From positions 1 through 42,022 of the forward strand of contig VHDF01000038.1 of assembly GCA_016871495.1 (NCBI GenBank): DNA of 42,022 nucleotides, in the 5' to 3' direction. The notes beneath the pieces are model-generated. The model made no database searches and was not told the DNA's origin. It saw nothing but the letters and a program-made list of their open reading frames with translations. The translations under genes and the position numbers were made by a program. This DNA comes from Verrucomicrobiota bacterium (lineage in GTDB: Bacteria; Verrucomicrobiota; Verrucomicrobiia; Limisphaerales; VHDF01). Positions 2,962 to 24,884 of the stretch are shown here, piece after piece; within the stretch, counting starts at the first letter, position 1, and each line of letters starts with the position of its first letter.

Positions 2962-3492
2962 ATGACGATCATTCTCACGCTTGTGGGGCCGGACCGCACC
3001 GGCATTGTGGAAGAGGTTTCTCATCTGCTGGTCATGCATGGCGGCAATTGGCTGGAGAGCCGGTTTTGCCGTTTGGGCGGCCATTTTGCCGGGATTTTGC
3101 GCGCGGACATTCCCCTGGAGAATCGCGATGCGCTTCACCGCGCTTTTGACTCGATGCGAGGCGGCGGATTCGAGATTCAGCTTCGTGAAGGGAGCGTTCT
3201 TCTGGCCGCGCAAGCGATGCATTTCGCCCATCTCGAGGTGGTGGGCGGCGACCGTCCGGGCATCGTTCGCCAGATCAGCCAGATCCTGGCTCGATTGGCG
3301 GTCAACGTGGAAGATTTCGAGTCCGGCTGCGAAAGCGCTGCGATGTCGGGGCACTCCCTGTTCTCCGCCAGGGCGACCCTGGCGCTGCCACCCCAGGTCA
3401 GTGTGGAGACTTTGCGATCCGCCTTGGAGGGCATTGCGGACGACTTGATGGTGACGGTCCGCCCTGGCGCTAAGGAACAGGGGCCAGGGTGA
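2962..3492 (+). CDS. Double ACT-domain regulatory protein (GcvR-like)
   Basis: A 176-aa protein made of two ACT domains (about residues 1-75 and 85-165). The first begins ILTLVGPDRTGIVEEVS and the second EVVGGDRPGIVRQIS, both with the glycine-containing ligand loop. The organisation matches the glycine-cleavage repressor GcvR and related amino-acid-sensing proteins. No DNA-binding domain is present, so it presumably acts by protein contact, as GcvR does. The ATG at 2962 is preceded by a good Shine-Dalgarno, GAGGGGA; an upstream TTG at 2947 is less likely. Its 3' end overlaps the convergent selenoprotein candidate by 23 bp. The ligand is unknown. Confidence 0.8.
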   Translation: MTIILTLVGPDRTGIVEEVSHLLVMHGGNWLESRFCRLGGHFAGILRADIPLENRDALHRAFDSMRGGGFEIQLREGSVLLAAQAMHFAHLEVVGGDRPGIVRQISQILARLAVNVEDFESGCESAAMSGHSLFSARATLALPPQVSVETLRSALEGIADDLMVTVRPGAKEQGPG

Positions 3493-4429
3493 TGCGGAAG
3501 AATCCCTGGGTTCCAGGTTCGGCTGCGGCATCGAAGCGGAACGAAGTTTCGAAACAGCCTGTGCCATCGAAAAGATTGGCGTCGGGGGCCGCGAGAACAG
3601 GCCGCTTCAGCCCGGGCTGCCAGTCTCCGAGTTGCGGGGAGAGTTCGTAGGAAGCCAGGCTCATGGCGGGCGCAGGCCGCCGAAAGGTGGCGACGAGACT
3701 ATTGAGCGCTCCGTTCTTGACCACGGTGAGTCGCACGGACGGGCGGCTGGAGGAGTTCAGGGGCGAAGTTCCGTGGGCCCATTCGGCGAGGTTGCTCACG
3801 CCGTCATGATCGGCATCCTCGTTCGGGCCTGGGGTTAGATTGCCGAAGTGTTTTTCCTCCCACAGATCGGGCAGTCGATCGCCGTCGGAATCCACGACTT
3901 TTGCCGCTTCGAGGAGGAGTTTCTTGAGGGCGGTGTAGTGGGTGGGGAGGAGCAGGTTCTGGCTGGTGAGGTTGAAGACTCCGGACAGCCGGTTCACGGG
4001 GTCGAGGATGCGGACATCGCGGTAGGTGGCCTTCCATTTTTCGGCTACGGCCAGGTCGAAGCGATCTTGAAGCCAGGGCAGGTTGCGGCCTGCGGTTGCG
4101 GTGGCATTGAAGGAGGCGTAGTTGGTGCGGTTGATGCCGAGGATTTCGATGTTAAATCCCACCCGCTCCGCCCGGAGTTCCTTCTGCAAATCGTTCAAGT
4201 ACCCAAACTGGGTACGGCAGTAACTTCACTCCGCGGAGCCGAAGTAAAAGGCGGAGACTTGGAAGACGTAATCGCGGGGAGAGACGGACGCATGGAATCG
4301 CGGGGAATTGGGATTTTCGTCAGGCAAGCGCCAGTCGGCTTCGGGGGTGGCGGCGCGGGCGAACGCGGTCATGACGGCCATCAACAACGCAAGGGAAACC
4401 CTGGCGGCCCCGGACGAAAGCGGATTCAT
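3470..4429 (-). CDS. Candidate secreted selenoprotein: thioredoxin-like domain with UxxC motif and Ca-type DxDxDG tail
   Basis: Read through one in-frame TGA (4226-4228), this is a single 319-aa protein. Residues 1-27 form a signal peptide (MNPLSSGAARVSLALLMAV...ARA). A thioredoxin-like domain follows (VFQVSAFYFGSAE-U-SYCRTQFGYLNDLQKEL), with the TGA at codon 68 exactly where the first Cys of CxxC belongs. The tail has thrombospondin-3/EF-hand-like acidic motifs (DSDGDRLPDLWE, DADHDGVSNLAEWAHGTSP) often found in exported Verrucomicrobiota proteins. A 6-bp hairpin with a G in the second loop position starts 10 nt after the TGA. Both flanks of the TGA are in the same frame and both are needed for the thioredoxin fold. 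The alternative is a nonsense mutation or a sequencing error. Start ATG at 4429; its ribosome site is weak. The C-terminal end overlaps the ACT gene. Confidence 0.72.
4199..4228 (-). promoter_or_regulatory. Bacterial SECIS-like hairpin just after the in-frame UGA
   Basis: On the minus strand the UGA (4228-4226) is followed by ten bases, then a perfect 6-bp stem GUACCC/GGGUAC (4215-4210 with 4204-4199) closing a five-base loop AGUUU. The loop begins 17 nt after the UGA and has G as its second base. This agrees with the bacterial SECIS rule as I recall it: a short stem, a G among the first two loop bases, and a loop about 16-37 nt from the UGA. A weaker outer pairing of GUU with AAC is possible. 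Selenocysteine insertion is inferred; selA, selB, selC and selD are not in the window. Confidence 0.68.
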
Positions 4430-4493
4430 AAGGCGGTTACGGTAGATCAAACAGAGAAGTTTTTCAAAACTTTCCCACCATGGCCGGGCATGG

Positions 4494-4713
4494 GCCGTGC
4501 ATCCCGAAGATGTCTGTCGTGTGGCGCAGGCTGCCCAGCCTGCCGTATCGCCGACTGCCAGTCGGCCCGGCGGGTGAGGAACGAGGCCCTTCCATGCTCT
4601 CCACGCGCCTGGATCCCTTCGTCGCCCCGCAGGCTGGGCAGCCTGCGAAACAGCAAACAGGGCTGTCTGCGTTACCAAGACAACCCGGTCACCGACAACC
4701 TCTGGATGCACCG
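4494..4713. mobile_element. MITE-like non-autonomous element (copy A) with 8-bp target duplication
   Basis: About 220 bp without a real gene fills most of the 4430-4771 gap. The ends are imperfect inverted repeats (CCGTGCATCCCGAAGATGTC at the left, CGGTGCATCCAGAGGTTGTC read inward from the right; about 18 of 24 positions agree). Directly outside them is the 8-bp direct repeat GGGCATGG (4486-4493 and 4714-4721), which looks like a target-site duplication. Inside are three perfect palindromes: GCAGGCTG-CC-CAGCCTGC (4526-4543), GCCGACTG-C-CAGTCGGC (4550-4566) and GCAGGCTG-GG-CAGCCTGC (4629-4646). No transposase is encoded, so movement would need one supplied in trans. Confidence 0.6.
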
Positions 4714-4771
4714 GGGCATGGAAGCTCACAGGGGAAGCAAGATTCCTCGATGAAACCGGATGGCCTCGAGC

Positions 4772-6112
4772 TCAAGGGGCGGCCATCTCCTTTTCCAGCG
4801 CCTTCGCCAGCCGGTCGATCTCGGATTCGTCGTTGAAGATATGGGTTGAGATGCGGAGGGCGTTGTAATCCTGAAGCCGGCCTTGTCCGGTGGAAATCCC
4901 CCCGTAGGTGGGCGGCACCACGCGCGTTTGAATGTGATGGTTTTGATAGAGTTTGGCCGCGAGGTCTGCCGATTTTACGCGTTCGAAGGCGAAGGTCGAG
5001 ATGCCGGGGGCGGAGAGTGAATCGTCGGCGGGGGACAGCAGGCGAACTCCGCCGATGGCGCCGACTTGCTTTCGAAGGTACCCGCTCAGTTCGCGGCAGC
5101 GAGCTTCCACGCGTTTGCGGCCGAGCACTTGATGAAACGCCATCGCGGCGGCGTGTCCGAGAATGCCGGCCACATTCTGTGTGCCTCCCGACGCGGAATA
5201 AAAAGGCTGGCCGAAACCGGTCGGGAGAGGCAGGCGGGGCTGGGCCTCCTTCCGGACATAAAGCAGGCCGCTGCCTTTGGGGGCCAGCATCCACTTGTGG
5301 CTGCTGGAAGCGTAGGTGTCCACGTCCAGTTTCTTCACATCGATGGCCAGCATGCCGGGAGCCTGAGCTCCGTCGCAGACGAGGAGGATGCCGCGGGGCC
5401 GGGTGAGTTTGGCGATATCGGCCAGCGGCATCACCAGGCCGGTGAGCGTTTCCACATGGCTGAAGCTGCAGACGCGGGTGCGGTCAGTGAGTTTGGCGGC
5501 GATGAGATCGAGGATTTCACGGGCGGTTCGCGCGGGCGCGGGGATTTCGACGAAGACCGGTTTGATTCCGTAATGGCGGGCGAGGAACATCCAGCCATTC
5601 GAGCCGCTCGGGTGCTCGTGATTCGTGGTGAGCACTTCGTCGCCGGGTTGCAACCGCAGGGCCATGGCGATGGCGTTCATGCCTTCGGTGGTGTTTCGAG
5701 TGAGCAGAAGTTCGTCGCGCGTGGCGCCGAGGAATTCGGCGGCTCGCTCTCCCGCATCGCCGGGGGCGCCGAAGGCGTATTGCACCGGATCCCCTTCCAC
5801 ATGGCGCAACCACGTGGTCACCGTGTCCAGGACCAGGCGCGGACAGGCCCCGATGGTGGCGCAGTTCAGATGGATCAGTCCGGGATGAAAATCGAATTCG
5901 CGCCGAAGACGGCGCCAGTAGTCTCGGCCCGCTGCCAAGCTTTGCAGTTCCGATTCCAACTCCGCCAGACCTGTCCGCAGGGCGGCGTCCGCTGCTTGAA
6001 CGGCCGCGGTGGCCGCGGCACCCAGTGCCAGCCGGCCCATGAACGAGCGCCGGGAATGGTGAACTTTCGAAGCGAGGCGCGGCTTGGCGCGGGAGGAAGT
6101 CATCGCCGACAT
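4772..6112 (-). CDS. Tat-exported class V aminotransferase (isopenicillin-N epimerase-like)
   Basis: A 446-aa PLP enzyme of fold type I. A twin-arginine signal is at residues 20-42 (SRRSFMGRLALGAAATAAVQA), so export as a folded protein is likely. The substrate-side motif LIHLNCATIGACP is at about 79-91, TRNTTEGMNAIA at 138-149, the cofactor Asp in LLVCDGAQAPG near 247, and the Schiff-base lysine in SSSHKWMLAPKG at K273. This pattern is that of the cysteine desulfurase/isopenicillin-N epimerase class; the substrate cannot be told. A Tat-exported PLP enzyme is unusual but recurs in PVC bacteria. It stands alone, bracketed by two copies of a dispersed repeat. Confidence 0.85.
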   Translation of the reverse strand: MSAMTSSRAKPRLASKVHHSRRSFMGRLALGAAATAAVQAADAALRTGLAELESELQSLAAGRDYWRRLRREFDFHPGLIHLNCATIGACPRLVLDTVTTWLRHVEGDPVQYAFGAPGDAGERAAEFLGATRDELLLTRNTTEGMNAIAMALRLQPGDEVLTTNHEHPSGSNGWMFLARHYGIKPVFVEIPAPARTAREILDLIAAKLTDRTRVCSFSHVETLTGLVMPLADIAKLTRPRGILLVCDGAQAPGMLAIDVKKLDVDTYASSSHKWMLAPKGSGLLYVRKEAQPRLPLPTGFGQPFYSASGGTQNVAGILGHAAAMAFHQVLGRKRVEARCRELSGYLRKQVGAIGGVRLLSPADDSLSAPGISTFAFERVKSADLAAKLYQNHHIQTRVVPPTYGGISTGQGRLQDYNALRISTHIFNDESEIDRLAKALEKEMAAP

Positions 6113-6531
6113 TTTGGACCGTTCGCACGCGATTGGAAATTCAATTCATGAAAGCCGCGGCTCCCGATTGCCTTCTCGAGTTGTCAGCCGGAGGGGGATG
6201 CCGGGAGTCCCACGTTTCGTTCGAAAGAGCTCTGTCGACGCGGAACTCGAACGAGTGAAGAAGGAGGCCCTGCCATGCTCTCCACGCGCCTGGTTCCCTT
6301 TGTCGCCTGCAGGTTGGGCGGCCTGCGCAACGGTCGACAGGGCTGTCTGCGTGATCAGGACAACCTCTGGATACACCTGAACCACGGCGTGCTGAGGCGC
6401 ATCGCCGGACGACGGCACGTGCCTCGCAGACCGCGGCGCTCTGGACATATTATCGCGTTCACCACCAACTTTTGGTTGGGTGCGGCTTTCGGTTGGCCGG
6501 GCGCGGAATTGCCTAGAGGCGGTGAAGTCCT
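6113..6531. other. Intergenic region holding a repeat remnant; no gene seen
   Basis: This 419-bp gap lies between the aminotransferase gene (start 6112) and the pseudouridine synthase (stop at 6532), both on the minus strand. No open frame in it looks like a protein. Its middle part (6255-6378) is a diverged copy of the 4.5-kb repeat. The remainder includes a GC-rich stretch around 6400-6450 and AT-richer sequence around 6445-6480. I saw no convincing terminator. Confidence 0.5.
6255..6378. repeat. Diverged partial copy (B) of the MITE-like repeat
   Basis: This segment aligns in the same orientation with 4574-4712. Shared blocks include the stretch CATGCTCTCCACGCGCCTGG, then CAGG(C/T)TGGGC(A/G)GCCTGCG, then ACAGGGCTGTCTGCGT and ACAACCTCTGGAT(G/A)CACC. 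The right terminal repeat is present as GGATACACC (6369-6377). The left part, with the first two palindromes of copy A, is missing, so this is an older or truncated copy. Together the two copies form direct repeats about 1.7 kb apart around the aminotransferase gene. Confidence 0.65.
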
Positions 6532-24528: not shown

Positions 24529-24617
24529 ATTCATGGTGAGAATCGATCGCCTGGACGCGGGCCGGGCATCCGGAGCTTTCGACTCGGTTGGGAAGAGTCC
24601 TCTGATCGCCGCGAGTT

Positions 24618-24750
24618 CCGTGTATCCCGATGTTGTTGGTAGGGCGGGCCTGTCCCAGCCCGCCGCCCACGGGATGCAAAACATCATGCTCCGGCGGCGC
24701 GCCGGGACGGACGCGCCCTACCTGCATCACCGGCAACATCGGGATGCACC
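24618..24750. mobile_element. MITE-like element (copy C) with 10-bp target duplication
   Basis: A 133-bp non-coding element sits in the gap before rpsB. The ends are inverted repeats: left CGTGTATCCCGATGTTG (from 24619) and right, read inward on the other strand, GGTGCATCCCGATGTTG (15 of 17 the same). A further inner arm GGTAGGGCG pairs with CGCCCTACC. Outside are identical 10-bp direct repeats GCCGCGAGTT (24608-24617 and 24751-24760), a likely target-site duplication. The termini resemble those of copy A at 4.5 kb although the interiors differ, as expected for elements moved by one transposase in trans. Confidence 0.62.
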
Positions 24751-24884
24751 GCCGCGAGTTCAGGCCTGGAAATAAGGATTGCGCCCCGGTGCCCCCTGTG
24801 AGAGCGTTCCCGGCCCTCGTGGGGTTGGCGAGAATCGCAGGATTTTCGAGGCCTCTCGAGGGGAAGCAAAACGGCCTTAATTGA

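Follow-up and report, generated by a model that had tools for sequence, protein, structure and literature searches.

A 220-bp element in the window, by which we mean the whole 42,022-nt stretch of DNA analysed here (host contig C38 in its entirety), is very probably a DDE-type MITE with 8-bp duplications and promoter-offset sites that carries a REP pair as cargo and was moved in trans by a DruA/ISKra4-like transposase. Its copies, their duplications, the ends that it shares with other elements, the promoter offset, and REP pairs without such ends in relatives were all directly observed.

Element in the window

The family A copy lies between two minus-strand genes, encoding a class V aminotransferase and a selenoprotein candidate, and occupies 236 of the 342 intergenic bases together with both duplications. 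It is non-coding. The original prediction described inverted ends between exact 8-bp direct repeats, and this was borne out: positions 4497-4517 and 4691-4711 are inverted with 81% identity, and GGGCATGG is unaltered on either side (Table 1). The three perfect internal palindromes that it claimed were recovered at 4526-4543, 4550-4566, and 4628-4647, the first and third also matching each other in inverted orientation (24 nt, 92%), and the element does begin 65 b upstream of the start of the selenoprotein candidate, whose ATG is at 4429-4427 on the minus strand. The family A consensus contains a fourth palindrome (4653-4670 in the window), the window's version of which is broken by a single base.

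The selenoprotein candidate has an in-frame TGA at 4226-4228 in a thioredoxin-like context (..FGSAE-TGA-SYCRTQFGY, by eye), and its frame runs past this TGA into the ORF at 3470-4198.

Table 1. Positions of the element, its parts, and neighbouring features in the window
Feature	Position	Strand	Remarks
Sigma-70-like promoter TTGAAA-17-TACCGT	4439..4467	-	Predicted; offset 26; matches 5/6 (-35), weak 3/6 (-10)
Target site duplication, left	4486..4493	.	GGGCATGG; exact repeat
MITE family A, full copy, 220 bp	4494..4713	+	7 differences from the family consensus
Left terminal inverted repeat	4494..4517	+	(N)CCGTGCATCCCGAAG..GT; end motif common to family B and DruA/ISKra4-like elements
REP-like arm 1	4521..4566	+	GTGGC + hairpin (4526-4543) + CGTATC + hairpin (4550-4566)
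REP-like arm 2, inverted	4629..4675	-	GTAAC + hairpin (4653-4670, one base broken) + TGTTTC + hairpin (4629-4646)
Right terminal inverted repeat	4690..4713	-	CGGTGCATCCAGAGGTTGTCGGTG
Target site duplication, right	4714..4721	.	GGGCATGG
Class V aminotransferase	4772-6112	-	PF00266, E 3e-55
Decayed family A copy, 3' part	6252..6365	+	Similarity to family A
MITE family B copy	24617..24751	-	A-type end motif; GTAG..CTAC hairpin pair inside

Copy number and target site duplications

Comparison of the element with the host genome (5.06 Mb, 201 contigs, 97% complete) yielded 45 matches from the 40 of 276 candidates that were scored, comprising 40 long matches with at least 91% identity and five shorter than these, at 24-34 b. 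The host sample, consisting of the window and 37 stretches around BLAST matches, measured 663,604 b and is biased toward matches. When a full copy was defined as a BLAST match within 8 b of both element ends, searching with 4494-4713, as the original prediction had proposed, gave 41 full copies of family A in this sample. Their mean pairwise identity was 90.8% and their identity to the consensus 94.7%, a pattern such as a burst from one source would produce. Genome-wide, an A-specific 29-mer (up to three mismatches) had 119 matches and its backwards control 0.

The 8-mers flanking the 41 copies, taken at fixed boundaries, showed no mismatches in 12 copies, one in 13, two in 9, and at least three in 7. 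An 8-bp duplication with up to two mismatches accompanied 34 of the 41 copies, compared with 0.36% of mispaired flanks. With many further copies that have the same ends and mostly carry duplications, the earlier reading as a MITE held, and the element was confirmed as a mobile, non-coding repeat of this genome.

The 37 genomes compared with the element in addition to the host are all related to it at the level of the order only. The neighbouring aminotransferase gene showed matches of at most 57% identity among the best 80 of 175, from which the host and very near genomes were possibly omitted; none of these matches pointed to a near relative. Comparison of the joined flanks of the A copies with all fetched stretches revealed no convincing empty site, and the spanning matches adjoin MITE copies.

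Sister families in the host

The end motif SGTGCATCC is common to family A, family B, and others, including family C (~230 bp). Family B is 134 bp long, with 23 copies identified in the host sample by a fuzzy pattern, and SGTGCATCCVSANG had 299 matches in the host genome against 2 for the control. The B copy in the window is flanked by the duplication CCGCGAGT at 24609-24616 and 24752-24759.

The host families B, D, and E enclose GTAG/CTAC hairpins between their ends; the ends of D and E are different ones, and the two tags are not both visible in every copy of the three families. Family D (134 bp) comprised 9 candidate pairs, some of which are perhaps false, and showed no duplication of 8-9 bp, its target perhaps being TA. 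It sits mid-element at nearly the same spot in two A copies (L021 3226-3360 and L036 12959-13092). Family E has ends of the type CAGCAGTTCTCATTTTG, a length of 122-123 bp, and an exact 8-bp duplication in three of four pairs. At L017, L030, and L010 it encloses a GTAG..CTAC hairpin pair, with one tag altered in L010. Ends similar to those of family E occur on a DruA-bearing element of genome G209 (L145).

DruA/ISKra4-like elements with matching ends

Of 293 genomes of the order, 50 contained a 24-nt end pattern (up to two mismatches), among them the host with 172 + 148 matches; the backwards control matched three times across all 293. Inverted pairs of these ends 2.2 kb apart led to two adjoining genes, encoding DruA and an ISKra4-like transposase, at loci L071 and L072. 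The DruA genes matched PF14236 (E 4e-23 and 2e-31), and ISKra4 was the best NCBIfam model for the transposases (E 5e-45 and 3e-53), with scores of 154 and 181 bits that lie below the curated cut-off of 205. Together with L178 and L083, identified by tblastn rather than family models, four DruA/ISKra4-like elements have matching ends, all in other families of the order. L083 is bounded by the ends CCGGTGCATCCCGAAGTTGTCGG and CAATGCATCCACAAGTTGACGG and the exact 8-bp duplication GTCCGCAG. No duplication was detected at L071 and L072 by the end scan, or by eye at L178, the left end of which lies outside the range of that scan. L178 contains an internal stop, and the L083 transposase is broken.

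The original prediction had called for a transposase with matching terminal repeats, which was thus found in these four elements, all of them outside the host. The host genome gave no tblastn match to the L072 transposase (one query, run without a positive control), and tblastn found no ISKra4-like transposase in the host stretches of the sample. Because the host genome is 97% complete and in 201 contigs, a copy was possibly missed or collapsed in the assembly. A relic MITE does not need a transposase in its own genome. Since no transposase was found and the copies differ by about 5% from the consensus, family A is probably now inactive in this host.

Among 65 DruA loci (60 fetched plus L071, L072, and L093-L095, with L083 found separately), tblastn identified a same-strand ISKra4-like partner in five: L133, L142, L178, L071, and L072. 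L133 shows a 9-bp duplication around an element with the variant end GGGCGCATCTCAGATTTTCGG, and L142 has GGTGYATCTCACGG ends.

Of 320 genomes of the order, 101 had matches to DruA (PF14236), a protein known from Druantia phage defence. DruA adjoins or is fused to several kinds of transposase, namely ISKra4-like partners, Tn5/IS4-like fusions, and elements with GTAAC or CAGGG ends, which we take to be IS66-like and ISAs1-like, respectively. Four of ten DruA proteins showed a sub-threshold match to the Mom family (best E 0.017), and DUF4338 is termed GNAT-like in the available part of PMC10853773. On host contig C117 (L094), one terminus carries a DruA fragment joined to apparent IS66 pieces (by eye), and the other truncates a DDE_Tnp_1 gene; mobile elements seem to be where this assembly breaks.

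An alternative source of mobility would be a DruA-Tn5-like fusion gene on host contig C15, with DruA acting as a shared end-recognition part. It is the sole non-fragment DruA match in the host (of two matches) and is flanked by two MITE-type ends. However, a motif-free search revealed that it has ends of its own, CTTCACCTCGACATTGCACACA and GTTCACCTCAACATTACACACA (15/18), inside the MITE-type ends, together with its own 8-bp duplication with one mismatch (ggcgcggc/ggcgcggt), indicating that this element jumped into a MITE. We therefore consider it extremely improbable that the fusion gene moves the MITE, and DruA was rejected as the determinant of the ends. The locus (L093, ~3285-5878 on the gene strand) comprises a 2387-bp DruA-Tn5-like element apparently nested in a MITE copy, and its outer left end matches other repeats over about 57 b.

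Other transposase types were also rejected as movers. ISL3 was represented by two short C-terminal relics, the surroundings of which lacked these ends as a pair (by eye); IS256 gave no match; and the two DDE_Tnp_1 matches were a contig-end gene without clear ends of the A type and the DruA-Tn5-like fusion.

Insertion of a subset of copies at a fixed distance from promoter-like sites

We scanned outward from 64 sites (41 A and 23 B; 127 of 128 flanks at full length) for promoter-like pairs, defined by a single fixed model as at least 8/12 matches to TTGACA/TATAAT with a spacer of 16-18. The -35 box lay 26 b from the element end in 6 pairs and 27 b in 10, compared with a mean of 0.44 per offset. 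Offset 26 or 27 was thus occupied in 16 of the 127 flanks; 1000 shuffles gave a mean of 0.60 and a maximum of 5, and the second-best adjacent offset pair scored 3. Among the A copies, 13 of 41 were promoter-proximal, each on one side and none on both. The fixed promoter offset holds for a subset of the A and B sites; the B copy in the window showed no promoter-like site at this offset on either side. When such ends in relatives were scanned, a promoter-like pair lay at offset 27 in 8 of 44 flanks (mean 0.23 per offset; L067, L068, and L070 excluded as duplicates), and both L072 and L083 carry TTGACA there.

In the window, the predicted promoter lies between the MITE and the selenoprotein candidate at the family-wide peak offset, which suggests that a core promoter was left in place between the two. 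Transcription from it would begin just a few bases ahead of the ATG, and one of the two calls, start codon or promoter, may therefore be wrong.

Internal hairpins and REP-like pairs

Matches to the element were found in 10 of 38 genomes including the host, that is, in 9 of 37 relatives, and were confined to query positions 20-90 and 112-188. Six of seven relative loci (L047-L053) showed the layout GTAGCGCAG-hairpin-CTGC-nGTnTCGC-hairpin (or GTGG) with an inverted partner, and the seventh, L052, showed a variant layout. The MITE end motif was absent within 750 b of all seven loci; relatives carry such REP pairs without MITE ends. We compared 14 arms, 12 from relatives and two from the A consensus, which were chosen by A-likeness and are non-independent where they share a locus. 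Both stems pair at the seven outer positions in all 14 arms, 7 of the 14 outer stem pairs covary (both sides changed), and the eighth stem position pairs in 9/14 and 4/7. From this comparison, the palindromes of family A can be read as two GTAG-type REPs in inverted orientation, each with two hairpins, an identity that the original prediction had not recognised.

The mobility of REPs is usually ascribed to RAYT tyrosine transposases. Among the hallmarks of GTAG REPs, a tag next to the hairpin and inverted pairs were present, and no RAYT flanked by the same repeat was found in the host. A strict scan of the 2.1-3.3 kb loci surrounding five host Y1_Tnp matches found no GTAG hairpin (stem of at least 6), and the putative RAYT link of the repeats rests on repeat likeness.

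Of the 103 arm matches in the host sample (nhmmer E ≤0.05), 102 had an A end within 230 b; the exception, L032:1385-1431, might represent a free pair or else a decayed copy. Single arm matches in L055, L058, and L096 belong to the C81 region, beside an A end. These results bear on the possibility that the mobile unit is the REP pair itself (a REPIN), inserted into or targeting a pre-existing palindrome, for which the accessible text of PMC3733652 offers a precedent in the GTAG-15 dimers of Anabaena variabilis, REP dimers that regularly lie within palindromes. In family A, however, nearly all arms in the host sample accompany A ends. In 34 of 41 copies the 8-bp duplications stand outside the entire 220 bp, which shows that the complete element was what moved last. 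Movement of the pair alone is contradicted for the last transposition round and possible for a founding event; as an account of the element we judge it quite improbable.

Within family A, stems 1, 3, and 4 were less variable than the middle (2.1% vs 4.2%, Mann-Whitney p 0.018), a difference that selection on the stems after insertion might explain. The four hairpins in the A copies showed no compensatory double changes, except at one pair (consensus 63/67). MITEs commonly fold into long hairpins, and the palindromes might merely be the element's own sequence with no REP link. This ordinary MITE would fit the uncompensated decay of stems after insertion (with that one exception) and five of nine short elements with these ends in relatives that lack an internal GTAG. 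We nevertheless consider it unlikely, because relatives from other families have inverted, covarying two-hairpin units to which the core can be aligned and which lack the ends, and the host families B, D, and E likewise enclose GTAG/CTAC hairpins.

The window element folds with z = -4.5 and -4.6 on the two strands, and 0 of 200 shuffles equalled these values. Such a strong predicted fold on both strands would also be expected of a structured RNA gene or regulatory RNA element. However, Rfam gave two matches, each well short of the gathering score. The element is also dispersed with duplications, and compensatory change does not maintain its stems after insertion; this reading is very improbable.

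Proposed origin and comparison with known systems

We propose that the outer ends of about 24 bp derive from a two-gene element encoding DruA and an ISKra4-like, Mutator-type DDE transposase. We infer that such a transposase, acting in trans, moved family A and its sister family B, generating 8-bp duplications and often picking sites at a fixed distance upstream of sigma-70 promoters. The REP pair would once have been a free REP/REPIN-type repeat that became enclosed by DruA/ISKra4-like ends and was carried as cargo; capture in this direction, not the reverse, appears probable. The whole unit would then have multiplied by transposition, in the order of events that we reconstruct. At the selenoprotein candidate, the element would have replaced the sequence upstream of the -35 box and kept the core promoter. 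In a further reading, which we regard as less likely than not, promoter-homing ends have been adopted as carriers that deliver REP hairpins about 60 bp upstream of the transcription start of many genes. That several end types (A/B, D, and E) in one genome carry such pairs would, in this reading, point to an advantage of the hairpins to the MITE or the host and not to a chance passenger.

A REP pair spread inside promoter-favouring DDE-type ends would represent a second route of REP dispersal, and such elements would position hairpins at a set point ahead of genes. DruA, for its part, is tied to mobile elements of several kinds. In the literature searched, of which parts were seen and which left most subscription papers outside its scope, we found no description of a DruA/ISKra4 element or of REP pairs inside ISKra4-type MITEs.

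In the sections of PMC3942029 available, Mutator-like bacterial elements are described with 18-39 bp repeats, a terminal C, and 8-9 bp duplications; several members of the ISKra4 group insert upstream of sigma-A promoters, TnGBS inserts 15-17 bases upstream of the -35 box, and marked elements in the tree do so at 13-17 bp. The present elements resemble the ISKra4 group (p-MULT 4) of those sections in their terminal C, repeat length within 18-39 bp, 8-bp duplications, insertion upstream of sigma-70/A promoters, and a transposase best fitted by the NCBIfam ISKra4 model. They differ in that the partner scores fall below the NCBIfam cut-off, DruA lies directly upstream of the transposase, and the A element itself is non-coding. 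The offset of 26-27 is also about 10 longer than the 13-17 given there, or about one helical turn further.

The available part of PMC3733652 describes GTAG-tagged REPs, their dimers, and a GTGG variant in O. terrae, where GTAG-20 is mostly GTGG; the tags in family A are GTGG and GTAA. The GTAG-15 dimers of A. variabilis, which lie in long palindromes, are similar in that a REP dimer is enclosed by inverted sequence, but that part presents them as insertions within palindromes and gives no duplication, transposase, or promoter preference. As in the GTAG REPs and REP dimers (REPINs, BIMEs) covered by the portions available of PMC3733652, PMC2817692, and PMC3116915, the tag in family A stands next to the hairpin and the units are inverted. 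Unlike them, each arm here has two hairpins, and the pair is enclosed in DDE-transposon ends and would move with them.
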